The position numbers and the translations under genes are program-made. Shown here piece by piece: positions 1 through 49,333 of a DNA stretch of 64,000 bases. The DNA is taken from positions 1,488,001 to 1,552,000 of the forward strand of contig JAMYGW020000010.1 in NCBI GenBank assembly GCA_025617375.2, written 5' to 3'. Source of the DNA: Acarospora socialis (taxonomy: Eukaryota; Ascomycota; Lecanoromycetes; Acarosporales; Acarosporaceae). The notes beneath the pieces are model-generated. The model did no database searches. It was not told the DNA's origin and saw only the letters and a list, made by a program, of their open reading frames with translations. How positions within the stretch are numbered: the stretch's first letter is position 1; each line of letters starts with the position of its first letter.

Positions 1-3000
1 ACTATGACAATGCAAGTAAAACTGAAATTGCACAGAGCTTGAACTCAATACAACTGAGTAAAAAGAACTTGAAATTACTGATGTAATCTTTTGTTTCAGT
101 TACAGATCTTTTATCTTGTCACAATTACAATAAGAAAAATTATCTGTCTCAATAGCAAGCTGCAATAACTGACTCAGAGAATTGATTCATTGAGTTTTCA
201 CAGTCTGAAAAATTTCTTCAACTTTCTCACTTCAAGACTTCTTATTTCATAACAACATTATCTGTGATGATTTCTAGTTGATGAGTGTGAACAACAAGTA
301 TAGTCAAGTGAGTGACACTTCATATTGCTCATCTAACATTCTTCAAGTCAATTGATGAGTTTGACTTTAATCAGTTTGATCACTTTCATTCAGTCATGTC
401 ACATATAACTTTAATGTCAGTCTTTTATTCTTCAACAGTGAAACACATTTTGTTGTAAAATCATTTTCTGACAACATACAAATTTCATATCTGTGTCTGA
501 AAAGCAAAGCTTAAGTGAGTTAGACTATCATGATGCTTGAGTTTTGAATTGAATCATCATCATATGCATTTCTCACTGCTGCACAAATATTCACATGATG
601 TTATCAGCTGTCAGTTAAGAAATGAAGAAAAAGATAATGCTGAATATCTTTGCTGAAGAAACTGTGATTCTATATGATGATAGTTCAGTTTTAAGTAATT
701 CTGTTAATAGTTCAAGAATATGTCAGAATACTAGTTCTGACAGACAACAGAACTCAGAGTTATTGTGAGAACAGAGTTACTTTCAATTGCTTGACACTGA
801 CTGTCAGATTGATAAGTCTTGAAAAAGAACATTCTGTTGTTGTGAGATTCTTATAATGTTCACTGAGAAGTTACAGTGTTGTCATCATAATTCATGCTTA
901 CTTCTCAAAGCTTGCAATAATCTCATTCATCACACTGTTGTGAACTAATCAGAATCTTGTATTTGAGAAACATTGTCAAGTGTCAACTGAATTGTGTCAC
1001 TGCTTTCACAAGAATGTGTACTTGCTTGTTCAATGAAGTAACTCAACTATCAGTAAATCAACAACATCAACTAGTAACTCACTCTACAACAAAGCTGTGC
1101 CTATTAAAAAAGAAGACTTTGACAGAGAAAGAACTTGATGAGAATAAGAGAGTATATAGATTTATGAATGAAAAGACTGCTTAGACTTGTTTCATAAGTT
1201 TATTTTAGTGCTCAATAGTGAACATCTAGTCATTTCTTTTGATTGATTTGAGAAACTTGATTATCTTTTTTCACACAACATTTAAAAGAGTGTCAATGCA
1301 GCAACAAGAGACAATGCAGCAAACAGAATGATCATCAGTCATCAATAGTAAAAAGTTGAGCAGATTTCACAAACAAAAGTCAGTGTATCAGAAAGTTCAT
1401 ACAATGATTATTTCAAAGTTGAGCTTCAAGAACATGCTCATAATTGTTAAGATCAATATTCAAAGACATATTGAAGATCATATCAACAAGAGATCATGTT
1501 CATCTCAGCATTCTCACATCAATCACTGTGTTTTTTCTTTTCTTCACTACACAAAGACACTGCAACACTCTTTTGAAGACAACAAAGATTCATCTTGAAG
1601 ACATGACATCTTGCTGAATCAACATTGTCATATTGCTCTTTGCAGAACTCTGAAGAGTTAGTGACTAATGTTGAGACATAATATTCTTGATTCTTGCTCA
1701 TCTCATAACACTGAGCAGCTTTCATTCAAAAGTTCTTCTGATGGTTCTTTCTTCATGATCTTGCTATATCATCTTTTTGAATTAATCACTTGTTGAGATT
1801 TCTGATTTCTTCAATCATCAGCAAGTGTTGCTGATTGCAGAGTATACTTGCATTGATATTCAGACAGAAGATTGTGATTGAACATGTTGTGAAAGATTAA
1901 GACTTGACTTTCACAAGCAGTTGCAGTTCTATCAAAGATTTTCTGACCACTCTTGTAACTAATGTACATGAGTGTATGATTACACAAATCTGAACTCTAA
2001 AGCAGAGTGAATAAGAATCTTTGAATATCAGAGACTTCTTCTGCACTGACTCATCAATGTAAGCAGTCAATAGATACACTATCAAGAATTGTCTTGCTAT
2101 CATTAACTATTCTTCAGAACACTCAATCTTGAGTATATTGTTGTCTGACATTTGTATTTGCTGCATTCACCAGATCTTGAGTAAGTCACACAATGTGACA
2201 GCTGCTCTCATCTGCTTGCATCACCAGTCAACTTTCTTGTATAATTCACTGAAAGAGCTGACTGCAGAGGTGACAGTCTCTGTGTGAGAAGCTTGAGTGA
2301 CATGTGATTTTGATGAAACATTTGTAAAGTCAGTCAAGGCTTTTGCAGAGCAATTTCAAGGAGAGTCATGCTGAAATAGTGCTTGTTGAATATATTGCTC
2401 AGGCAATGCTGTCTTCTTTGGGGTAGATGTTCATGAAGCATTTCAAATTGAACTTCTTTTTGGTTGTAACAACTCTCTTGTGATTGTGAGATTGACTTTC
2501 AAAAGTTATGAGCTCAGAGATCATGCTGAGAGAGATATTAGATCAGAGTCTCTGAGTTGGTAAGATCTTCACAACTAAAGGTTCTGGGTTGTTGATTGCA
2601 TCTAGTGACTCTGTAAGCATGGGTCTCATGTTAAGCAATATGATGATGAAGTTTCAATCTTCTTTTGTGATATCAAAGTCAAATGATCTGCCTCATCTTT
2701 ATCTTCATTCACTTATTGTATACACCCTGCAATTGTGATGCCAACCCTGATACTTCATAATCTTAACTAGCAGCAACAACTAGCAATACCATCTAATTTT
2801 ACATAATAATCAAAGAGACTGCTGCTATCCCTGATGCCCATAGACATTGTTTGATCATTGTCTTGTTCATTCACAGTTCTTTCATCTGTGTTGTCACTGT
2901 CTCACAGTCTTGTCATCTACAAACAGTCTGTCCCCCTTCATCACCATCACTTCACAGTCTTTCTATTCTCTGATAGCCTGCTCTTCTTCATTGTTGCTGT

Positions 3001-3580
3001 TTCTCATATCTTCAGATGTTCTTGTTGTCAGAATGTTATTTGAGTTCATTGAGAAGGCTCAAATCATTGTCTGCACTTGAATAGTTGAACAGAGTCAGTC
3101 ATACATTGTGTCAAAGGCCCATATGTGTTGCTGAATGGTTGTCTGTAAGAACAAGTTCTGTTAGTTTTGAATTTGCATCAGAAACAATGCTGAATCTATC
3201 ATTTTTGTTCTTAATGAGCATACCTGTTTCTTCTTTACCCACCACTCTTTTCAGACAGTCAATTCCACCCAGTATCTGGCCTCCCAGCATGTCTCAGACA
3301 TCCTTGACAACTGAAAGATAACTCTTTGTCAAATTGAGTCAATTGATGACCTCAGAACCAGTAACTGAGTGCTCTACATGCAGGCATGGTGAACAAGGAA
3401 GAGGATCTGTTTGCAGGTCAAGAAAGACAAGAAGAATGTGTTCTGTAGACTACCTGCTTTGTTGTTGGTCATGACACAAGGGGTGAAGAAGGAAAATTTT
3501 GAAGTTCTGGTGCAGATTGATACACCAGACAGTTGATTTTGTTGGCTATGTTGCTTGGGATATGGTACACTTATCTTAGT
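1..3580. repeat. CpG-free, AT-rich mutated relic tract
   Basis: No CG dinucleotide occurs from position 1 to 3580; the first lies at 3581-3582. In 1-2160 I also find only three CC or GG dinucleotides (near 1100, 1743 and 1946), while CA, TG, CT and GC stay common. From about 2160 onward CC and GG return but CG remains absent. Every frame is short and interrupted and none resembles a known protein. This looks like repeat DNA saturated by a cytosine-directed mutation process related to RIP or methylcytosine decay. Classical RIP would deplete CA and TG, which is not what I see. The element family is not recognisable. Confidence 0.85.
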
Positions 3581-3597
3581 CGGCACAGCCAACTAAG
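3575..3597. repeat. Imperfect 10-bp palindrome at the edge of the CpG-free tract
   Basis: Two 10-nt arms, CTTAGTCGGC and GCCAACTAAG, pair with one mismatch around a 3-nt loop. The first CG of the window lies inside the left arm. It could be an element terminus or a chance hairpin. Confidence 0.4.
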
Positions 3598-4457
3598 CAT
3601 ACCGTATTCTGCATGTGATCAGCACCATCTTGAGCTGGTACATGCAGGTGAGGTGTTTCTGTCCAAAAGTGGTGAGCTGAAGTTGCTCTTGAGTGTGTGA
3701 GAATGTCTGCATTGTTGACTATAAGACCTTATGTAGAACATGTGTTAGAAAGAGAAGGTTAGCCGAGCCGTCAGCGTCCTGCCTAAGCGAATCTAAGTAC
3801 AGAATGGTTTCACAGTATTCCCCACTGTGTTTCAAATCAACGCAAAGGGTCCGAGACCTTCAAGGCTCAAGGGCAGCAAAGAAAATGCAGTATGCTTTAG
3901 CAATAGAACCTGTAGCGACCCAACCATAAGCAATTTCTTTCAATAATGGTAGCTCTCTGCTCCAACTGACATTTGATTAATATCACATAAGCAGAGGCTG
4001 ATTGTGTCCTGAGATATCTGTGCGCGTAAGAAAAGCTTGAATTACTTTTCTCTAAGGTAATTGCTCGACGTTCGGTGCATAAATGGGTGGCTATTGGCCG
4101 GGATGCTCAACATCTTCATCGGGGGTGCTCGATACCTTCATCATCACCATCATATTCAGCGGCATCAGGGTTTTGTCTGTCCTCCAAGGTGACCATCACT
4201 CGTCTCAAAGCGGTATGCAACTGCAGGCACGACTCTTCCGGATCTTTCTTCAGATCCAAGCGTGGATCGGCGTGCATGGATATCACGTCGTCCCCGTTCT
4301 TTGATGGCAGCTGGCGTAGCACTCGCTAGCTCTCTGCCTAAAGCCCGCCTTTTCCCAAAAGGTTTCTCGTGCTGCTCTTGCTCTCCGATATGTGGGCAGG
4401 TTGTTCATAACCTTCTCTGCTACCGATCCTGGGACTATATGGCCGCATTAATGTCCG
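3598..4457. other. Transition zone with no convincing gene; one short unassigned open stretch
   Basis: CG dinucleotides return here, so the DNA is outside the mutated tract. On the minus strand 4116-4322 is open for 68 codons. It is acidic at its end and has an AG just upstream that could be a splice acceptor, so it might be the last exon of a lost gene. I do not recognise it and find no partner exon. Nothing else stands out. Confidence 0.4.
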
Positions 4458-6460
4458 TCATCGATCAGGGTCAATCTGTTTATGCCGAACGTGAACAGGG
4501 AAAGGGACAATGAAAACGTGCAAGGTTGCGATTTGGTGGTGGTGATCTGGTGTTGGGGAACAAGAAAGGAAGGGAGAGAAGACAGGAAGGAAGGATAGAC
4601 GCACGATTTTTCCGCCCTTATACTCCTTCCCGAGCAGATGTTTGACGGTATCGATGCTGAGCAAACCGCGCAACCAGTCCCATTCGTCACGATGCCGGAC
4701 CCAGAAGCCGACGTTGGCGTTGCTGCCCTTATCGCCGCTGCGAGCGTGCACGATCCAGCCGAGGGGTGCGTGGACGGTGGGGCCGAAGGATGAAGGATCG
4801 GTGGGGTTGGGAGTGCTGGGTTGTGAAGGTTGTTGGGTGGGATAGAGGCGCGTGCCGGTTTCTGAGGGAGGAGGAATGAGGATGGGAGCGCCGGTGGGTG
4901 CGTGGAGAGTGTGTTGGATGTGGGATTGCGGGAGGAGGGTTACGAAATATCTGTCGCAGGTCAAGGACGAGTTAACATACAGAATAGGTTTGATTGGTCG
5001 AGGTTGGAACAGGTGCTTGGTGGAGGAGTTATTGGGAAGATATACTCAAAGACAGGTTTCGGCAACGCCTGCCTGAAATCCAGATGAAAAGTTGCGCCCG
5101 GATAACCTTGCATAATGAGATCCGCAATGGGCCGAAAGAACTTCAGAGGCGAGAGATCTTCCTCCGTTGGCGCCTGCGCGAAGATTCGGAAATCCACCGT
5201 CGCGGAGTTCTGATCGATCGGGTCGTCCGGACACGAGCCGTTGAGCGTGAATGCGAATACAGTAAACCGATGGGAACATTGTTTCAACGCGCGCCGGACT
5301 TGCGCTTCAAGCATGCGCGCTTTCGCCGCAATACCCAACCCCACGAGGAACCAGTGCATTTCGGCCTGGTAGCCTCCTTTGGCGGTAATGCCGACTTTGG
5401 TTGTGGGTGGTGGCGGGGCGGACTTCACACCATGCAGAGCGACGCGGTCAGTAGACAGCTGCTCGAACCAGATCGAGTCCAGGACGGCGGTGACGTCGGA
5501 GTTGAAGTACCAGGGTCCTTGTATCTCGTAAAGGAGTTGCGAGCTGCAGGTCCCGACGGAGACTTCGCCTCCGCTGCCCTTTTGTTTGGCGATGATCACC
5601 TGACCGTTCGAGGATATTTCAGCGATGGGGTAGCCGATGTTGTCCCAGCCTTTGTCTTCGAGCGTCTTGAAGCCAGTGTAGTTGCCGCCGCAGACATAAT
5701 TGGAGCACTCGATCAAGTGTCCAGCCACGAAGGCGTTCGCGAGTTGGTCGAGGTCGGAGCGCGTCCAGCCATGCCACCAGTATGCGGCGCCGATAACTGG
5801 AGAAGCGTCTGAGACTCGCCCGCAGAGGACGATATCAGCCCCTTTGTCGAACGCGGCGGCGATACCGAGCCCGCCGAGATAGCATTGGGCGTAGATGGGT
5901 TCGAATTTCCAGTCATCCAGGACCTCCCCGGTGCAAATGTTCTCGAACTTTGATTCCTCTGATTTCCGAGCTTTGTTGACGGCGTCCAGAACCTCGTCAC
6001 CCTCGATCCATGCCACCTTCAGTTCGAGCCCCTTGTCCGATATCATCTTCTTCACAATGCCAAATAGCATCTTAGTGTCCGAGCCTCCAGCGTTCACAGC
6101 TATCCTAATCCCGTACTTGGCGATATTCAACAGCGCCGGTTCTAGCGCCTCCAGAAACGTAGGCTCGTAGGCAACGCCGGCGGTCGGGCTGAGGAAGTTG
6201 GGATCATTGGCATGATCTTGGCTAGCAGCACGGTCTGTCTTGCGTCCAGCAGCGACGGTCATGTTGGCTTCAGACATCCAATCCCCGATGATGACATCCA
6301 CTGGGTCATTCCGGTAGTTTTGTGCAAGCTCGCGGAAGGCATCGCGGCGATCTGACACTGCGCCGGAGGCACCTAGAAAATCGTCAGTTACTCGATAGGC
6401 CTGAGGGTGGACGTCCACCATACCAGCGATACGGATTGGTCTATCTTTCCTAAGGGACAT
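4458..6460 (-). CDS. AtuA-type (acyclic terpene utilisation family) protein, 3' end apparently lost
   Basis: The protein matches the fungal AtuA/DUF1446 family, which in bacteria belongs to the acyclic terpene (citronellol, geraniol) degradation locus; its role in fungi is not established. Seen: start at 6460, a 51-nt intron (6373-6423) after which the family N-terminus reads RIAGASGAVSDRRDAF, the hallmark DVIIGDWMSEANMT, then a 95-nt intron (4951-5045) leading into the smaller C-terminal domain with HARSGDKGSNANVGFWVRHR. About 575 residues result if a donor at 4604 joins an acceptor at 4476 and ends at 4458. The last 40 or so residues expected of the family (the block with HDHLDRG) are absent in all frames down to the CpG-free tract. 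Start choice: a Met ten codons upstream (6490) is in frame but lies before the family's usual beginning. Confidence 0.8.
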
Positions 6461-8034
6461 TGTACCTATAATTGCATAGATCCCGGACATCAGAGGTCCC
6501 TTTGTAAAAACGACTCATCAAAGAGGCAGATCTCCTCATGGCGATATCTTAGCTATTATTGAGCTTGAACCGAGGCATCGTTATGACTAACGTCAGGTCA
6601 TCGCCCGCCTAGCTCTTAAGCTACCCCACTACCCCACGTCTTCTAATTAGCCCTAACACTACCCTTTTACTGTAAAGAGAGCGATCTTCAGATATCAACC
6701 TTTCATATTGCGTACAAGAGATCAATTTCGAGTAATCCCCTTGTTCTCAGAGGGTACCTATCGTGAAGCTGCCTCATGAGTCTATGCGGTAAGCACCCGG
6801 TAACACCAGCAACAGTACCAACAGAGCTCCGAACACGACTTCAATAGTCAGTAGACCCACTGTGCCGTCATTCGAGAAAGCCCAACTCCTAACACCGTTG
6901 ACCTTTGAACCGCCACTACGGTCCCGTGTAGCGACTCTGAGACCAGTCAGTCCGTCAAGGCTGTCTGCATTCCACTGAGCCTGATACTTCCACAGTTGAT
7001 TCCTCTCCATCCACTTTGAAGCCCAATGCTATATGGTCTCACGATCCTTAGAGCACTTCATTTCGTTACTTCCTCTGCTTGAAGCGTCAGCTGAAGATGA
7101 CCCGAACGCCAGTAAAGGATCTCCGTAGCCGCAGGGGATCTGCACCTGCCGCAGAGATGAGAAACACGACAGAATGATACGGGTGTTCCCACCTCACTTT
7201 GAACGTATTCAATCGAATGATAGCGCTTGCACCGTCGACACACACCTCCCATCTTTCCCGACATTGGCCGAAAGTCCTGCTGATCCCAATCGATGACTAT
7301 TCCCTTGTAAAAAAACCCCTTGTTCCTCCATAGTAATTCGAATAAACAGAACATGATCGTCACTCTGACATTCTGATAAACACGGCTGACAATCTCCATG
7401 CCTTGTCCTGTGACATATATGTATGTAGTGTATAGAGTCGAGGACCGCAAACGTCATTGCAGGGAGACATTTCGGCGATTCATTGACATGCTTGCTTACT
7501 AGGGGTGCCGACGCAGTGAAGAGGACATGTTGGAACAATAGTGCCGAGCCGTGGACGTCGTCCGGAATGTTCCCACAGAAGTCTTTATCTCATCCAGAGC
7601 CAGGACGAGGAGGATCGGTAAAGCCTACCTAGTAGTCGGTGCATCTTCAACCGCGACCGGGCTAGGAGCCAATACAAGCCATAAGCCGCATTTGTTGAAT
7701 CCGCGCGATAGGCATATAGCTTTCGCCTCTAGGATCAAGCATGTTGTTCTCATATTGGCAGACGAATCTAACTGAAGGTGGTCAATCAGACTCAAGCTGG
7801 TGCCCTTTCTGCTACGTATATAAGCTAGCGTGCTTAAGATGATGTAGATTCTTATCATTGCCAACGCCGCCCTTATCACCACTAATCCACTTCAAACCCA
7901 AAAGAGTGTGAGCCATGATAGATGAACCGAGTAAGGTCACCATTAACAAGTTGAGAGACACTTCCTGAAGTTCCATGAACGTGCTAACAGGGTTACCTCC
8001 ATCGCATGTGCAACCGATGACAGATTCATATCCA
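6461..8034. other. Gene-poor stretch with possible decayed coding fragments
   Basis: On the minus strand, 6774-7010 encodes a segment ending in a long hydrophobic run like the C-terminal anchor of a surface protein, and 7058-7450 is an open frame with several CxxC pairs. Neither is recognised, and no splice chain joins them convincingly. They may be the tail of a broken secreted or membrane protein. Confidence 0.3.
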
Positions 8035-15147: not shown

Positions 15148-16419
15148 TTATGAAAAGAATGCTTTCGCCCTAAACTGCCCCGTCGAGAACCTCTCCAGAC
15201 AGACTTTCTGTTGATTCCACGGCGGCCCTCCCAAGCCCAAATCCCACGCCCACGTCCCGAGGAAGGAGTACGCGTTCGCATCCGTCGTCGTATCCTTGCC
15301 GGTCTTGACCGCATGGCCTACCTCAAACGCCGTCTCGCCCGTCTCATCGTTGACGTCGAGGCCTGGGCCAGAGATACTCTGGATGTGCGCCATTTCGTGC
15401 AGGAGCAGAAAGCCAATGCTGACGGTGCCGGGGGCGGCCGAGCACGGGGTCGGGTTGGGCGGCAGCGACAAGCCGCCGGGGCAGAGGACGATGGCGGGAG
15501 CTCGGCCGGGGCTTTGGGCCGCATAGCCGATTAAAGCTTCGAAGAGGTTGAGCCGGCAGTGCTTCATGAAGTCTCTGCACGTGACGCCGATGGGTTGGCC
15601 TTGGCCGAGTTGGGACTGGATGACGCGGCTCATGACGCCCCCCACGATGTTGGCCGCGCCTTGGTTGCCCGGGAAGAAGTATTTGAACGGCAGGTCGCTG
15701 AATTTGGCGGCGGCGTTGAGGGCCGCGCCGGCGAGATAGCTGGCGTGCAGCATGCCCATGGAGGCTTTGGCCGCAGCGGTGGGAGAGCAATGGCCCGGTA
15801 GCAGCCGGATGCCGCTGGTGGTGACGGCTCGACGGGTCTTGGGACGGGAGTGACGGGCGTTCACGGGGAGGGTGACTTGGAAGGGCGCGGAGATGTGGGA
15901 TATGGAGGTCAGGTTGACTTTCGAGACATCGCCGAGTCGCAACTGCCCGTCTATCAACCGCCCTTTGGCTGCGGGATGGACATCATACACTCCGTCGTGC
16001 TCTTTCAGCCCTCGGAAAGCCGAGGACAGCGAAATCTCGATCGTCTGGAGGCGTTCCGACCCTTTCGGCTCGAGCACAACATATTCCGTCAGGTTGAATT
16101 CCCGCGTGAAGTTCCCTCCGGGCGCCAAGTCCAAGAAATCCTCCCGACCCACGCCGCTGTAAAACAAGTGGCTCGCCCCCATCGGCAAGCGGGTTCCGGC
16201 CGCATCGGTGATTCTGAACGGAAGGGACTGATGCGAGGTGTCGAAGATGGTGTTGTGTTTGAGCACGGAGACGTGGCGGGTGTGGGTGTTGGTTATGACG
16301 GCCATTATGAGGTTGTGGTCGTGGTTGCAGCGGGTTATGGTCCCGGTTAGCTGGGCGATGGAAAGGGAGAGGTGGGAGAGAAGGAGAATGAGGGTTGAGT
16401 GGAGATAGGTTTTTGTCAT
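15148..16419 (-). CDS. Deuterolysin-type (M35) secreted zinc metalloprotease
   Basis: Single exon of about 423 residues. A signal peptide (MTKTYLHSTLILLLSHLSLS) starts at 16419; an in-frame Met 25 codons upstream would bury it, so the inner Met is chosen. The first half is the M35 prodomain-like beta region. The catalytic half has the HExxH zinc site HEMAH in GFLLLHEMAHIQ, and downstream TDANAYSFLGTWAW, which fits the Asp ligand and Tyr region of aspzincins. Cysteines are arranged as in secreted proteases. The enzyme would hydrolyse extracellular proteins. Family membership is secure; substrate is not known. Confidence 0.85.
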   Translation of the reverse strand: MTKTYLHSTLILLLSHLSLSIAQLTGTITRCNHDHNLIMAVITNTHTRHVSVLKHNTIFDTSHQSLPFRITDAAGTRLPMGASHLFYSGVGREDFLDLAPGGNFTREFNLTEYVVLEPKGSERLQTIEISLSSAFRGLKEHDGVYDVHPAAKGRLIDGQLRLGDVSKVNLTSISHISAPFQVTLPVNARHSRPKTRRAVTTSGIRLLPGHCSPTAAAKASMGMLHASYLAGAALNAAAKFSDLPFKYFFPGNQGAANIVGGVMSRVIQSQLGQGQPIGVTCRDFMKHCRLNLFEALIGYAAQSPGRAPAIVLCPGGLSLPPNPTPCSAAPGTVSIGFLLLHEMAHIQSISGPGLDVNDETGETAFEVGHAVKTGKDTTTDANAYSFLGTWAWDLGLGGPPWNQQKVCLERFSTGQFRAKAFFS

Positions 16420-16913
16420 GTCTGGAAAGTAGAGTGCGGCGAAGAGACTCAGTAGGTACGAATTTTTGCTCAAAGGTATGGATGCGAAGCTCAACGTAAA
16501 GAAAGGGATCTATATATGTTTTCGCATACAAAGTAGATACGCTGGGGTATGAATCAAGAAGACCATGAGTTAAGCCATGAAACAGCCTTGTACTCCTACT
16601 GTGTACATAGTACAGTGCATAGACTGTGATGTTGAACATTCTGTCCTACGCGTGTGTTTCATGGTGAAGCACTGCCCTGATGATGGAAGGTTATGGCAGT
16701 TGATACGCACCAGTCATGCAGGTGGTTAGAGGTCATATCCTGAAGGTTGAGTGCCGGCTTAGCAGTGAGATGAGACAGTTCGTCTGCGCTATTAGCGATT
16801 TACACTTGACAAATCCGAGTGTTGAAACTGAAGAAGAACTTAGTTGAATGGACACTGCGTGTGGATTGGGATCATAGATCTTTCTTGGTGTTTAACTTAT
16901 ACTTTATACAGTA
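16420..16913. other. Promoter side of the deuterolysin gene, nothing recognised
   Basis: No open frame of note. The MITE begins at its right end. Confidence 0.4.
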
Positions 16914-21372: not shown

Positions 21373-23690
21373 ATTTGCAAGTTGATAATTGTGTTTAATG
21401 AGGTAAAAGTTGCTCTTCGCAGGTTTCTTTGAAGCAGAAGGAAAGATGAAGTGGGGTAGAAGAAAAGGATATATAATTTATACCAACACACAAAGTTTTT
21501 TGATTTGTGGATTAGTAAACAGCAGCGGGGCGATCTCCGCCAAAGGATGGGATTAGATGCAAATACAGTACCTAGTGAGATGATGAAGTCCCACATCGCG
21601 CTTATCTTGGTCATAAAGTCATTGCCGCATCTGGCAATCAATTCGTCGAGTCAATGGCTGATGGAACCCCGAACTTCCCCACATGGAAGAAGGGGGAGGG
21701 GTTGAATGACTTCGGATGAGGAGCCCCTCTTTTAGCGTGTCCCAGACTGAAAATCAAAGGGAAGAGCCCTGCACCCTTGAGGTCTGTCTTGGTCTAGGCC
21801 ATGGCGAATGGATGGTCGGCTTCTAACTCAGAGTAGGGGCCCGTTCAGGTAATCATCACGATTCAGCAGGGTCTTCCGGCAGAGGAGAGAACAGCCACCC
21901 TATCCAATATATGTATTGTACCTTAGGTCCCATCGCCTGTTGTGCGACGTGCATGCGTGTATGACAGACACTTGTTGCAGTATTACACGAGTACCCGAAC
22001 CATCCACAAAAAATCATGTCCCTACGACGAGGGTATTTGAACAAAACGAACAGGAGGTGCACCTGTTGTATAAAGGTAAGACGAACTGATAGAAATGGTT
22101 CGGACGACACTGAACGAATCAACAATGTTCTCCATATTCCCGCGGCCTTCCAGTCTACCGCCCTCCATCTTCCTCCGCATACCCGATGTGCGCTAAAATC
22201 ACACAATATCAACGTACTGTAGCTTTCGGTGCGCGATACATTTGCAATGGATGACCAGGACCGTTTCCGTCCCCATGTTCGAGGCTACCTATATGATCCT
22301 TCTCAGTCATCTCTGCCATGGTGTGTTCCCGCGTTCGAAGACTCTGTCACATCAGCCTGATGACCCTGCCTCTCATCTCATTCAACACATCCTGTTCTTC
22401 ATAGAGCCCTCTCCTCTGGTGAGTAGGGTATCCCTGGACTCGCTTTGCCGTGTGTTGAGAAACGAAATGCAACATGACCATTGGCACCGCTGGAAGCCAG
22501 CACTAACTTCTCGCTCATGATTGATAAGGACGTGAAAGTGAGAGAAAACCTGTAGAAAAGCGGAAGGAAGCGGAAGGAAGCGTCAACTGGCTCGATACTC
22601 GAGAATCGAGTCTAGCCCTGTTTGCACATCCGGTACTTCTACCTATACCACGATCCATGGCTTCTCTCCCTCATGATAGAGAATCTGGGGAAGAGGGGTT
22701 CCGTTACCCGGAATTGGTCGATCTCCGGTCCTAGAAATGTTACGTGTGAACCGGCGCGATCTTTAGGTTAGTGTATCCCTACTTTGCGTTCAGGTCTACT
22801 CCGTAGGTAGTGGAAGAAAAGAGAACTTTGAGGTCGAAGTGCATGCCGTAAGACGGTCTCCTGGAGTGTCAGCTAGGCTGCCTGCGTCATCAAGCGTTGC
22901 AAGCGATGATTCCCTAAGGACACAGGAATATCGAGGAGATATAGATTACTACCCCTTGCGATAACAATGTGTCCGATCTCGGAAACTCAGGCGCGGACTT
23001 TGATTATGAAAGAAAATTTCCGACCAGTGGGTACGGATATATAACAAAACAAGACAAACATTGTCAGCTGTGATGGCTCAACTTAAAGAAGGCCACCGTA
23101 TCCCACTGCAACTGTCTCCTTCCTCTTTCACAAGAACGGAAGAAAGGTGCCCAGTTCGAACCCCGTGGTAGTCTCCAACTCGTGCGGGTAACCCACGATC
23201 TGCTTCGCGGGGCTCTAAGCAATGGGGATGAATCTTGAGGGAAGCAATTCTGCAGAGGCATCCCCACCATCGGGTGGCGGCACTGGATCACACCTTCTTT
23301 CGCTACGAGACGGGGGTGGTGGGCTGGTGGTCGACTTTTTTGATGTTTTTTTGTCTTTCCCCATCTTTAAACCTCGGTTGCTAATTTAATATCTTCGCCT
23401 GCCTGATATGAGCTGATTATGTTGCAACCAGCGCAAGTAGATGATGATGTCGTCTGTTGTGCCATGACCTGTAATAATTCCGTACTCGAGCAAAGAACAT
23501 TTCCATTATCAGTCGCATTTGCTACGTATGATTTCTTTCATTAACCGTTATCTAGTATACAAAGTTGCAGAGGCAGCCACCACCAGGCTGCGAATCTGCC
23601 ACACTTATCTCGATCAAGATGGCCGTGCTCCATGGAGTCAGTCTCGCTATGCTATGTAAATCGCCGGAGAAACGCCATACTCGCTGAGGT
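21373..23690. other. 2.3-kb intergenic stretch, no gene seen
   Basis: Upstream of the ALDH gene and downstream of the PP6 gene. Frames are short and without family motifs. Contains a GGAAGCGGAAGGAAGC repeat near 22560 and poly-T near 23336-23351. Confidence 0.5.
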
Positions 23691-28151: not shown

Positions 28152-29522
28152 TAAGGAGTGGTATTTTAGGAAATGTTTTACTTAAAGTAGCTCAGCAAGA
28201 ATGCAAATTCGAGTTATCACTCAATCTCTCATTAATTGCCCATTGTCACAGATATATGGCAGCCCCCTCACTGTAGAAGTAGTCTCCTAACCTTCTCGAA
28301 AAGTTCTCAACCACCTTAGAGGGTAAGACAACTGCGCTTAACGGCTGGATCTGTATTATCTGGCGTTGTGTGCGATGTCATTCATTCGGTAAGGATGATG
28401 AAGCAACAGCTGCAATACGGACAGATGGTTACGCGTTGCAGAGCAAAATTTTACAGGGCAGAGGTCACAGGCTACATGTAAATGAGCACGAAGATAAATG
28501 TGGATAAACAATTTGTATTGATTATATCTACTCGAACGCGTCCCGACCGCCAACATCTAAAGCCCACAAAAAGGAGAATGTGATAGAGTGCCTGTCAGAC
28601 CTCCATCAACACCCACCCCGCCGCGCCGACCGAAGTCCAAGCACAAGACGGGGTCGAGATCATCACCACTCTCACCCACCATGCCATCACTTCAGCTGCT
28701 CAGTCCCCGAAAGGCCCTCGTTGCCGAAGCGATGAGATGATGGGAAGACGAGAGTATAAGGCTTCACTCTAGGGTGTCGAGGATATAACGATCATCAGCC
28801 AGGTTGGAGATTCTGTGGCTCTGGTAAGGAGCTCAGAAGAGGACGTTTACTATAGAATTGATTCTATGCTGTTGTTCGCGAAGGGAGTGAGTAGTTAGCA
28901 GATGTGCTTGAAGACGGGGGAGAGATGGTGACAGGAGGAGAGAATGTGGTTGTTGCTGAGGTTTTGGGGAGAGGGACGTACAAGTAAAGTCGACTGAAGA
29001 AGAAAAAGTTTTGGAGGTTTTTCGAAGAATATATAGATGCTCGCTTAGCTGCGCCAAGCGAAAATTTTCGCGATTCACCGTGTTAGAGCTTATCCAGATT
29101 GGGCGAAGCGAGGGTGGACCTTCACAGCAGGGCAAGGTAAACATCTAACTTGTGCACCACCTTCGACCCTTAGTAGTAGGACTTGATACCGATGTCAAAA
29201 CGAACATCTGAGCACCTGTAGGTATAGGCACTGACAAATGCTTGATATAGGCCTCATAGTACATAATCCAAGGGTGAGCAGCCGATTTTATGCGAAAGGC
29301 TTATACACCCTTATGCAACCCTGGTGGGTCACCCACTCGACGTCACTATCTTGACTTCGTAACAACAGAGCTCCAAACATACCGCAATGTGTGATGGGCG
29401 TTCAAACGCGCACCTAACTACACCTTCGATCACAAAGAATACTCAGTGAAGAATATCTATAGCATCTTTTATCTTACCATTGCAAAATCCGTGAAGAAGA
29501 TCGATCTCGGACATACCTCACC
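28152..29522. other. Intergenic, nothing recognised
   Basis: 3' side of UPF3 and promoter of the gene at 29523. No frame over about 100 codons, no RNA gene seen. Confidence 0.45.
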
Positions 29523-44447: not shown

Positions 44448-47400
44448 TTACTCAAGACCATCGCCTTTTTTCTTCCTGTGCGGTATCAGATTGCGCAAAG
44501 TCCGCCTCGACCGGGAAGGGCGCGAAGGGTCCGGAGAAGGCACTGCTTCTTCTGAGTGTTCCTCGGTTGGTAGATTAGCGGGATCATTACGTTCTACGTT
44601 TAATGGAATTTCTGAAGTGCTGACATCTTCCACCTCTGGCGTTTCACTTTGCTCAGCTGGCTCGCCTTGAGTGGGATCTTGGATTTGTGAATCCTGGCCT
44701 TCGGAGCTAGCTGGTTGGGTTGTCGAATCTCTCCTAATAAGTTCTTCTTGGATCACAGATTTGATAAACATGTACCTCTGTGCCAGATAATCACTACCAG
44801 TTGCATCTGCGAGCCTTCGTAGCTCTGCAAGAGTTGATTGGAAATTCCCGGCTAGCGTCAACATCCACTGAAGGATTAGGACGGCTGCAATGAAGAGTTG
44901 ATGTCTGTGGCACCACTGGCCGATAGAGAACACCTGACGGACGACTGTGGCTTTCATTTCATCATCTCCAAGCTCAAATGCTTTTCGCATGTCAGCAAGG
45001 ACGGCGTGCACCTTGTCCTCTTGTTCCAAACGCCCATAGAGTTCCACGGCGAAACGAAGGTATCTGACTGTTTGTTCAGCTACGATACCATACCAGGCCG
45101 TACATCGCTTTACTTGTATCCCGTAGATTCGAAGTGCCTCGGCATACCATTTTCGTCTTTTGTATTCGATCATCAGCTTTTCCAATAATTCCCCTGCGAG
45201 TGTGAGTTCTATGGCCTGCAACGATGACAATGCTGGCTTATGAGCGAGGTTTAAGACCGCTTGGTTCTTGAGAATCTCGAAGCAGTATTCTTTCTTTCCA
45301 GCCGCTAGACTCCTCGCAACCAGCCCATGTTCGATCTTGATAGCAATTGATTTCTGACCAGACAATCTCGATATAACAGCCAGGGACATCATTGATTTTA
45401 ACGTCACTAGATGAAACCTACCGAACCGCTGAGATATGAGAGTTGTGAATCGCTCAAATAAACGGTGACTGATAGGGCTAATAGTCAATGTTTTGTCCAG
45501 CATCACCAACCACTCGATATAAATTGCTGTAAGCAAGAGGAGCGTAGGCTGGAAGGACCGATCTGCCGCTAGAATGCGTTGACATAATTCACTTTCAATC
45601 TCACACCCTCCGTCAGATGTGGCAACTGTTTCAGCCTTTTCGTGAAGTGACTCAAGGCAGTTCCAAACTCCCCTAAGCTGGCACAATTGATCTTCCACTG
45701 ACATCTTGGTGGTAAGGTTGAAGCTTAGTGTCTCAAGGTCTGTGGCGGACTGTTCTAAAAGATTGCTATAGTGATTATAGCCCTGCCGTTTAGCAGCTTC
45801 ACTGGCGAAACGAAAGGAGGTGATGAAGTCGGGGAGAACTTTGTTTGAAGATTGTTCAACAGCAGCTTCGTTGACAGCTTTGGCCCAGATTTGTGCTACC
45901 TGATCAGGTTGCTCTGAGGCTCGATGTGCAATCAATAGTTGAATAAAGGAAGACCATAGAGAGGGCACAACTTCAGGAGCAGCATCCGTGAAAATCAGAA
46001 ACTTTCTTCGAAACTCAGACTGAAGCTCGAAGAACGCGTCTACTCTTCTCCGTCTCAGGTTCTCTTCGTCGAACTGTCCAGGCTGCTTCTCTACAAGCGC
46101 GAGCTTTGCTTGCAAATCTTCTGCTTTTAGACGCCGAATTTCCTCGCTGTCCCCAGTCAAACACAGTTGCAGTTCAAAATATCCTTCTTCATATAAATCG
46201 TCGAATTCGTCCCCAAGTTCCTCGCAGGTTCTGAGCGCTTCCTGATAAGCCGTTCGCGCCTCGGACACTTTGCCGCATTTGCGAAGGATTTTGGCTTTAT
46301 TGACTGTCAATAGTACAGTAAGTTGATGGTGTTTGCCGAGTTCCTTTTGGATTTCCATTAAGTGCCCATCTACAGTAGCCAACACGTTCCCAGGTGACAG
46401 GTGTTTTAAGCTCATGGCTGCCAACAATACAACTGTCTTGCTGCTTAGATAGTCATACGTGCTCAGTTCTTGTTTGTGCCGATTGATGTAACTCAGTGCT
46501 TCCTGAACAGCTTCCCCACACTCTGCGTGCTTTCCCAACGACATCAAACAGCTGACATTCGCTAGAAGCAAAGCCCACTGACTCGGTTCCTTGTCGGTCG
46601 GATTCGAAGCTGCGGCATTGGCAAGCAGTTTGGTAGGAAAGTCTATGAGTCGCTCAAAGTCCAAATCACAGTTCGGATACAGAACTCGAACATCTAGAAG
46701 TACTTTCAGGAGAACCATCAAGGTGGTGAAGTTATTCAGACCAGAGCGCTGACTGCTATTTCCTAGCGCTAAAGTGATAAGTTTCGTGTGTAATCGCTCG
46801 CTCTTCTCCGCAACTCTCAACATAATGGACAGTGCAAGTAGCGACTCTCCGGCGACGATTGGTGTATGGGACGCATCTAACAAAGTAGTGAGATTACATG
46901 AATGGCGCACACAGTGTAAAACGTGGTTGTGATAGTGTCTCCGTAATGACTCATGGACGTCGGAAAATCGATCAAGCTTGGAAGAATGAGTCTTAGATAT
47001 CATGGCGAGGGCAAGGTGAGCTCGAGCATGTAATCCAGTTGTTTGATGTCCGTATTCCCCTACACGGGCCCAGGTATGTACCAAGGGGTGAACACTCAAG
47101 AAAGCATCATTATGCACATGCAGAAGAGCATAACTTTTGAGGAGACCGAGTGCGTGGTCGAAATGCGTACGATCCCAGCCAGTATCTTCGTTCTCTAGGA
47201 ACAGGCCTTGAATCCAGACATAAGGCTCTTGCGAAAGATCAATCTCATCTTGCTCCCAGAGTAGTTGGACACTTGATTGACCGATCTCGAATAACTCTAG
47301 AGGAATGTCAGAATGGTGGTAAAGCCCAAGGAGTAACAATAGCTCGGCAGCCGCTCGATTTTCCCTGTAGATAACCTGGAACGACATATCCCATGTAGCG

Positions 47401-49333
47401 ATGACGGTCTTTCCATACTGCTTGACTCTTGTCCCTCCTTCTCCATCCAACATTTTCGCTTCATGCTTCTGGTACACCGTGCAATATCTCTGTAGCCGTT
47501 GATTTAGAGGGAGTCTTTCCGGAACTCGGTTGTTCCTTAGGTAGGCACCTGCTTGGGCAATTGCAAGTGGCAGACCGCACAAGAGCTCAACGGCGATGCG
47601 CCGTTTCAATGCGGTGACTTCAGTTAAAGACAGCCCGTCGAGTGTTACTGGCAGAGCAGCAGACTTCTCTAGCAGAATGATGGCTTCCTCTTCTGACATT
47701 GGTCCTACTTCGAGGCAGTTGCCATGCTGCTGAGAATCTCCACCAATCTCTCCAGCAACATCTTTAGTCCGGCTAGTCACGATAATGTTTCCCTTTGCTG
47801 ACCAAGGAAAATATTGTGTAAGATCATACCGATCCTGGTCCGGGAGGTCGTAGTTGTCAAACACGAAGAGCCACTCTTCTGGATAGTCTAGCACATACTT
47901 GCACACAGCACGGACGGTTGGGTTTGGAGCATCCGGACTAGATTTACTCTGCTGTAGATTGGCTTCAATTGCGAAATTGTTGAACGATGCCGTGAGGGTC
48001 TCCATGGATGAGGCATCGAGCCAGTAAATTGCTTTGCCGAGCCGTAACCATCTTTTAGAAAAACTCCGCACGAGCTGCGTTTTGCCCGAACCCGGAAGAC
48101 CATGCAACAGAGCAATGCAAGGCCCATTGTGATCTGGTATATGCGATGAGAGTATCCTGCCTAATCTGCTTAACAGTTCCGGACGTTCAACAAAATGCGG
48201 TGATATTGAGTTGCCTATTGTTGACGAGGGGAAGGTGTTATGGTTAGTTTGAGGATGACGACGTACTGAAGAGAGTCAGACAGTTTACGGTTGTGGTATA
48301 AGTCTTCAACTCACTGACCGGGGCTGGAAGAACTTTGAATGGCCTCACGGGCCATACTCTGAATACTTCTCCCAACTATATCAAAGTCATCTCCCTTCGG
48401 GTTTTGAAACCTGCAGATACCGTTATGATCGGCATCCATGGGTATCTTCGGCTCGCACTCATCAGGCAAGCCCATCACCCCATTCTTCCGCTCAACGACC
48501 TGTCAAAATTTCAGCATCGAATTATCCGTTCTTTGCGTTGGTAAGAAGGTTTGCCACCGAAGGCTTACCATATGGCCGAACTTCGGATTACCTTCGTTGA
48601 AAGTAAGGAAGGTAAAGTCTTTTGCCCGCTGCAGGAAGTCGTTATGATGGCCTTCGGCAAAGAATGAATTCCCATTCAGCGCGGTCATAAAGGAATTTGA
48701 TGGCTTTCCGCTCAGCGTTCTTGCAATCGAAGCTGCTATTTCTCCAAGGCCCGCTTTATTGCCTCCATGATGGGGGGTACCGAAGAAAACAATACCGAAA
48801 GTTGCCGAGTATATAGACTTGTCGACATCATTGTTCCATGCAATGACCATTGCCTTACACATGTCAGTTGCGTGTCTGCAGATAGGGTTTGAAGCGCCAT
48901 ACTCTTTTGACCAGTAAACCGCCCAAGCTGTGGCAGATGAATATGATTGGTCTTGCGGGGCAGTCTTCACGGAGCAATCGAAGTCTAAACAGCATGCTTT
49001 TGGCCTGATCATCAACTCCCGCTGTGGATGACGAGAATGCTGGATTAGAGTTGTAGCCAAAGACCATGATACGAGCATTAGGTATCTTCGATGGAAGAAA
49101 TTCGGGATCTGCGAGCCACATTTTGCCATTGTCGGCGGTCCATGTAGTGATTGCATTGCTGTTACTACTGAAAGGGTTCAAGCCGTGCACACCGACAATA
49201 CTGTGATGGGTCAGCGACTACCCAGACAATGGGAACGGGTATAAGGGCATGAAACTCACTCCAGGTCAAGTGTTGCGACATCATCATCTTCTGCGGGGCG
49301 TAGGACTCGTAGGAAGTTCCTCGTAACGTCGCT
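44448..49333 (-). CDS. NLR-type protein: alpha/beta-hydrolase (SesB/PGAP1-like) - NB-ARC - helical repeats
   Basis: Exons 49260-49333, 48903-49200, 48569-48853, 48319-48499 and 44448-48214 splice cleanly (introns 59, 49, 69 and 104 nt) into at least 1535 residues; the first exon with the Met was not found. The head contains LDIVGVHGLNP, the nucleophile elbow ICHSLGGLLVK and FGIVFFGTPHHGG, typical of fungal lipase-like NLR effectors. NB-ARC: HFVERPELLSRLGRIL, P-loop HGLPGSGKTQLV, Walker B EEWLFVFDNYD, NIIVTSRTKD, CGLPLAIAQAGAYL. About 850 residues of TPR-like helices follow, then an acidic linker and a basic tail (SRRTLRNLIPHRKKKG). By analogy it senses non-self or an effector and triggers a lipase-like response or incompatibility. 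Confidence 0.85.

Follow-up and report, generated by a model that had tools for sequence, protein, structure and literature searches.

Repeat-induced point mutation (RIP) is a C-to-T hypermutation of repeated DNA in fungi in which the mutated C usually stands before A or T, and RIP as known mutates both copies of a duplication. APOBEC-type DNA deaminases read the preceding base and produce long same-strand runs. In the available portions of the papers cited throughout this report, a CpA preference is described as common to RIP-like defences, and in Neurospora a DIM-2- and DIM-5-dependent branch acts on single-copy DNA flanked by repeats (PMC12543289). CpA, CpT and CpG signatures have all been reported (PMC4352252), with CpA foremost in rDNA pseudogenes (PMC5555474), CpG then CpA in MATE of Aspergillus nidulans and CpG in Microbotryum (PMC2621366), and a CpG bias in Rhizoctonia, for which Coccidioides is also cited (PMC4014442). 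Table 2 of the latter paper gives genome-wide values for R. solani of one CpC change per 214 bp and one CpG change per 370 bp; CpC change is therefore not unheard of, being denser there than change at CpG. Low GC is reported for Coccidioides transposons, the accessible text giving no dinucleotides (PMC5872316), and RID and DIM-2 are treated in PMC11969663 and PMC13297926. In Cladonia rangiformis, one large RIP island per chromosome is read as the centromere, and the part of that paper available gives no dinucleotide context for the islands (PMC12542154). No paper was found in which 'CpG and CpC' occurs together with repeat-induced point mutation, and CpC as a main RIP target is unnamed in the literature covered, at least in the portions available; the novelty of what follows is provisional, since most subscription papers, including those on Coccidioides, lie outside that coverage.

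The locus described here, known from one genome sequence of Acarospora socialis, resembles Neurospora crassa RIP in that changes are C>T/G>A only, both strands are affected, a multi-copy centre is accompanied by spread into single-copy DNA and putative RID/DIM-2-like genes are present. It differs in that the target is a C before G or C and not CpA, and in that the partner copy, on contig C14, is hardly mutated. A preference for CpG is shared with Coccidioides, Rhizoctonia solani AG8, Microbotryum, A. nidulans MATE and Tuber, in which, in the descriptions accessible, CpA is the second target if there is one, R. solani excepted, whereas here both CpG and CpC approach exhaustion in one block and CpA survives. 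Cladonia rangiformis likewise combines AT-rich retroelement islands with RID and DIM-2 homologues, but the GC peak there is ~16% and island borders are mostly very abrupt, in contrast to a GC of 25–35% and the survival of CpA here (PMC12542154, in the part available).

The window is the whole stretch of 64,000 nucleotides analysed (C10:1488001-1552000), and the genome searched comprises 31,147,409 bases in 38 contigs. A preliminary description of the window had noted that CG is absent before position 3581 with CA and TG retained, and both observations hold. Window 1-3580, with a GC content of 0.35, contains 0 CG compared with 109.6 predicted by base composition, the first CG occurring at 3581; CA (333, observed/expected (o/e) 1.69) and TG (334, o/e 1.59) exceed expectation, and TA falls short of it (o/e 0.49). 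The dinucleotide count bears out the loss of CpG but also reveals a depletion which that description overlooked, that of CC (38, o/e 0.34) and GG (34, o/e 0.32). The right end had been placed correctly, near 3581, but the tract does not start at window 1: the full CpG-free run extends over 40,153 bp (C10:1451428-1491581), for which composition predicts 847 CpG and in which none is present, window 1-3580 being its right end. The second-longest CpG-free run, over the 154 kb examined on this contig, is 181 bp. Most of the C10 block has a GC content of 25–35%, and the genic DNA around it is of normal CpG composition. Tracts of the same kind occur on C7, C9 and C12 and, as short tracts near both contig ends, at C10:1-2750 and C10:1639001-1641500.

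Beyond the mutated flank, on its right, the nearest intact gene encodes an AtuA-family protein (window 4961-6490). Elsewhere the window carries an NLR-like gene (44448-48107), encoding an NB-ARC/NACHT protein that also weakly matches a tetratricopeptide family, a fungal signal recognition particle RNA gene (23066-23341, + strand; Rfam) and a U3 snoRNA gene (28590-28876, - strand; Rfam); Rfam detected nothing in the window beyond these two RNAs, and a tRNA scan of it detected none.

A search for related copies revealed one other near-full-length copy of the tract in the genome, on C14, in which GC and CpG are normal, and showed that the tract itself flanks a retroelement block. The homologous segments are C14:134766-149736, facing C10:1452928-1492446, and blastn identity of the mutated copy to C14 is 72–83%, piece by piece. 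The genome search found no further near-full-length copy; the remaining matches are of 650 bp on C12, 541 bp on C11 (68% identity) and five under 100 bp. The C12 match (91% identity) was considered as a mutated copy and rejected, its substitutions being mixed and its CpG o/e 0.93, that is, unmutated. Over 14,966 aligned positions, C10 and C14 differ by 3,064 C>T/G>A changes, 40 other differences and 58 gap columns; opposite window 1-3580, the corresponding values are 652 C>T/G>A and 8 others in 3,579 aligned positions, with 228/228 CpG sites lost. The C14 copy is not quite pristine: on reading the list of the 40 other differences by hand, 11 (nine T>C, two A>G) look like an ancestral CpG turned into TG or CA in C14. 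Since this twin is nearly unmutated, every change is readable without reconstruction of an ancestor, and the pair, ~15 kb before and after mutation in one genome, shows directly which targets a RIP-type process prefers and how it spreads.

Five stop-free frames in the C14 segment yielded no Pfam family except DUF3945, matched fragmentarily over 17 residues in a frame of 317 aa (E 2.8e-05). Within the duplicated segment, tandem repeats at C14:143644-144597 (L015:3644-4597) are open in both orientations, over 317 and 263 aa, and may be coding. Window 15158-16621, which is 82% identical to C14:133214-134668, was examined as a possible lost part of the duplication and rejected; because substitutions are mixed and gaps are present, the two represent an older paralogue, the open reading frame of which has no Pfam match. 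The C14 member of this pair ends ~100 bp before the duplicated segment starts.

Comparison of the two copies defines the target context. Between C14:134766 and 148842, 856/856 CpG sites are lost, the outcomes at 855 of them (cut at 148800) being TG 389, CA 341, TA 122, AA 2 and CT 1, so that both strands are affected. Classified by the next base, mutated cytosines amount to 1500/1930 before C, 976/1710 before G, 324/1910 before A and 222/1811 before T. The rate at CpG cytosines is near one half because one event at a site leaves its other cytosine in a CpA. The usual CpA preference of RIP is thus absent, with CpA and CpT mutated at only 17% and 12%, respectively. Isolated CpC (no C before, A or T after) is mutated at 360/370 sites between the elements, 183/196 to the left and, on the right side, 140/146 proximal, 51/79 distal and 8/32 at the edge, that is, 93–97% near the inserts. 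The following base matters most and the preceding base less, T raising the rate and A lowering it (TCC 0.88, ACC 0.68). Strand runs are weak, adjacent CpG outcomes being alike in 387/729 cases compared with 365.8 expected (z 1.57), and in 0.596 of CpG pairs closer than 10 bp (n=317). The target rule is a C before G or C; CpA and CpT play a minor part. The CpG-directed C-to-T process carried to saturation that had been proposed is consequently correct as far as CpG is concerned but incomplete, CpC/GpG being the second main target. The locus is a real, strong and clean example of RIP-type hypermutation directed at CpG/CpC, preserved alongside a nearly unmutated twin, and it suggests that RIP can have a target context opposite to that of the textbooks.

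One consequence concerns the detection of such DNA. The RIP indices of the tract are 0.56 (window 1-3580) and 0.69 (40-kb run) for TA/AT and 1.60 and 1.56, respectively, for (CA+TG)/(AC+GT). Published cut-offs are TA/AT >1.15 and (CA+TG)/(AC+GT) <=0.75, in a survey the available part of which places in its strongly RIPed class two species that bear on relatives of this fungus (PMC7882544). The tract fails both cut-offs and is therefore scored unaffected; surveys based on these indices would miss such DNA. The two strongly RIPed species are lichen fungi, and relatives may for this reason follow the classical rule.

The C10 copy is broken by three inserts of related LTR-type elements of ~6.2 kb per element, I1, I2 and I3 (Table 1), which match one another and have terminal repeats of ~0.35 kb. 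By eye, I1 and I2 are flanked by 5-bp target duplications, the two copies of each differing by at least one C>T/G>A. The I3 family comprises I3 itself and at least 12 other near-full-length places at 81–83% identity, a lower bound, as 13 of 421 first-look candidates were scored; RVT_1 matches are listed inside three of these places (C3, C8, C9). A sister copy of this family on C7 has 0 CpG and 5 CC+GG in 6,180 bp, and I1 and I2 together contain a single CC or GG in 18.4 kb.

Table 1. Coordinates of the mutated block, its inserts and the CpG-poor LINE copies.
Feature	Location	Strand	Observation
I1	C10:1456479-1468773	n/a	one element inside another of opposite orientation (reading of self-matches)
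I2	C10:1469358-1475483	n/a	matches I1 and I3
I3	C10:1481123-1487305	n/a	matches I1 and I2
Right flank of retroelement block, fully CpG-stripped	window 1..3506	n/a	homologous to C14 up to 148841; CpC loss ~80% to ~window 2007, then falling
Fade-out zone	window 3507..4152	n/a	CpG partly lost, CpC little, CpA/CpT almost untouched; ~45-column gap vs C14
End of duplicated segment, practically unmutated	window 4153..4446	n/a	C14 homology ends at window 4446
LINE copy L035	C1:2715001-2719000	n/a	7 CpG in 4,000 bp
LINE copy L036	C8:205001-208000	n/a	5 CpG in 3,000 bp
LINE copy L037	C14:73001-76000	n/a	5 CpG in 3,000 bp

Mutation frequency varies with position relative to the inserts. CpA/CpT rates are 0.231/0.170 between the elements and 0.157/0.123 in the left flank and, on the right side, 0.119/0.065 proximal, 0.039/0.016 distal and 0.024/0.000 at the edge. 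To the right of I3, mutation at CpC, CpA and CpT declines with distance, CpC loss starting to fade near window 2007, ~1.5 kb before that of CpG, which is fully lost to ~window 3507. The end of the tract had been called sharp, which is partly right, but it is graded, CpG sites lost per 300 bp being 17/17, 15/21, 6/16 and 0/18 (~window 3207-4446). Within the fade-out (C14:148842-149442), where the two intermediate values fall, losses are 11/66 at CpC, 2/82 at CpA and 0/82 at CpT, and the last 295 compared duplicated positions, in which no CpG is lost, contain 1 difference; ~300 bp of identical duplicated DNA are spared on this side. On the left, the CpG-free run continues to C10:1451428, 1.5 kb past the duplication and 5 kb from I1, into DNA the sole full match of which is itself, six other matches being of 44–48 bp. 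The mutated zone extends 4–5 kb past the outermost elements and ignores the ends of the duplication. Thus, the position of the elements is a better guide to the mutated zone than are the limits of the duplication, given the overshoot on the left, the shortfall on the right and the dose peak between the elements. The dose-distance rule describes one block, since the position dependence of CpC was followed at one right and one left flank only. Edges were compared at three blocks in all, the ends of the elements being undefined in the other two: on C9, all 6.5 kb examined of the left flank lack CpG and the fading on the right takes place at 1.0–2.0 kb; on C12, both edges change over ~500 bp. Given the right edge on C9 and both edges on C12, spread into neighbouring DNA is not general. 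The short matches on the left involve a sequence of 44–48 bp (C10:1450860-1450907) whose six matches lie on C8 and C14, four of them as two closely spaced pairs in opposite orientation; it is perhaps a small mobile element.

We consider it likely that the locus records a RIP-type process aimed at a C before G or C and spreading from retroelements into their neighbours. Changes are almost wholly C>T/G>A (3,064/3,104 differences) and repeated DNA is targeted, the LTR-type inserts and the C7 sister being CpG-free, with the mutated single-copy 1.5 kb on the left as the exception. Recognition would begin at the multi-copy LTR elements, from which the machinery, probably a RID-like and/or DIM-2-like methyltransferase, would spread along the chromosome into adjacent DNA at a dose declining with distance; we propose that it is because of this fall in dose that mainly the best target, CpG, is mutated at the rim. 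Timing may be premeiotic, as in Neurospora. Several observations count against this explanation: the 15-kb duplication is almost free of mutation in its C14 copy, unlike RIP as known, spread is not general at the C9 and C12 blocks, the dose-distance rule comes from one block, and the preferred context differs from that of the RIP literature in the portions available (PMC12543289, PMC4352252, PMC2621366). In this one genome, C14 could have escaped because the spread started from elements that C10 alone carries, or through inheritance of an untouched C14. The latter belongs to a different reading, in which the trigger was the 15-kb duplication itself, RIP occurred in one parent, and the mutated C10 was inherited with an untouched C14 from the other. 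We regard this as unlikely, although the segment is found in exactly one other near-full-length place, the 72–83% identity to C14 is close to the ~80% limit of RIP given in the sections available (PMC2621366, PMC10787394) and the 11 apparent losses in C14 suggest that CpG was lost there as well, since the mutated zone departs from the duplication at both ends and the dose peaks between the elements.

Retroelement-borne, RIP-type mutation also has to be weighed against explanations in which no such process operates. Passive decay of methylated cytosine, by deamination at methylated CpG/CpC, had been suggested initially and is consistent with CpG as the best target and with the presence of cytosine methyltransferase genes, and the 11 C14 losses show that ordinary CpG decay occurs too. 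The rates do not fit, however: 0/856 CpG survive, compared with 40 other substitutions in 14,966 bp, and by our own Poisson arithmetic, with 3/856 as the upper bound for surviving CpG, each CpG site received at least 5.6 events on average against a probability of 0.003 at an ordinary site, a ratio near 2,000. Mutation also stops at defined edges within identical DNA, and CpC is lost at 1500/1930 sites, so that decay is a very unlikely cause. Both classical, CpA-directed RIP and an APOBEC-like deaminase acting on single strands would account for C>T/G>A changes only and for AT-rich retroelement islands. The former had already been discounted, correctly in view of the low CpA count and of indices outside the cut-offs, while dominance of the following base and weak strand runs argue against the latter; we hold the two together to be highly improbable. 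Least probable of all is a contaminant or misassembly, which the abrupt change in composition at the window start might have indicated: the tract lies inside C10, its base-by-base homology to C14 is unbroken through the fade-out into identical sequence, and similar tracts exist elsewhere.

A profile search of the genome detected PF00145 matches on C2, C3 and C8. The best PDB chain for the C3 gene is 9bap (E 2.3e-191), deposited as a DNA (cytosine-5-)-methyltransferase, which we take to be Neurospora DIM-2; Pfam also finds DUF7893 in this gene, plus a BAH match just under the cut-off. The C2 gene has two exon matches to PF00145 and relatives that include DmtA of Aspergillus terreus, on the strength of which we call it RID-like. 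With its catalytic part as query 1,090 proteins passed, and among the best 120 of these the top named match is from Pleopsidium flavum (79% identity), with many lichen-forming fungi next and also Sarea, Botrytis, Aspergillus and others. Pleopsidium belongs to Acarosporales, which suggests that the host is a probable lichen former close to that order. As judged by these resemblances, the genome appears to encode RID-like and DIM-2-like methyltransferases. The present pair of copies opens to testing the question of which property of RID, DIM-2 or their partners determines the base after the mutated cytosine. A third, more divergent gene lies at C8:612909-616397 (L025), with a DNA_methylase match of 50 bits.

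Reverse-transcriptase matches elsewhere in the genome fall into two classes. Genome-wide, 150 of 151 RVT_1 matches were listed and were split at a match length of 600 bp, our own choice. Among those listed, the 108 short, LTR-type matches contain 389 TGA, 19 TAG and 56 TAA stops, or 389 TGA vs 75 others; mutation at CpA would rather be expected to yield TAA and TAG. The 42 long, LINE-type matches among the 150 include 23 without a stop, the remainder having 29 TGA, 2 TAG and 4 TAA. Three LINE copies, L035 to L037, are poor in CpG (Table 1) and 99.4–99.8% identical in their main alignments. In the C1 copy CpG o/e is 0.06, NCG accounts for 0/225 NCN codons and CGN for 4/32 arginine codons, and a 957-aa open frame contains reverse transcriptase and RNase H; the copies on C8 and C1 have open frames of 1,329 aa. 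All 33 differences listed in the three overlapping pairwise comparisons of these copies are transitions, 29 of them in a CpC/GpG context by hand count. These features fit a LINE that survives by offering no CpG, the alternative being acquisition from a CpG-poor genome. Only tentatively do we entertain the combined proposal of a RIP system whose 3' specificity is reversed (C before G/C, not A/T) and a LINE answering it by shedding CpG. For the escape of transposons from RIP (crapaud in Podospora), divergence with retained function is given as one route in the text available (PMC10787394), whereas the LINE here has lost nearly all CpG while its three copies stay nearly identical.

The 40-kb block at 1.45–1.49 Mb is not favoured as a centromere, the LINE-type cluster of C10 lying at 187–265 kb. 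Among the matches listed, LINE-type RVT_1 occurs on C1-C12, C14 and C16, with a single cluster in each of 12 contigs and a lone match in each of C12 and C16, and these clusters are perhaps candidate centromeres.
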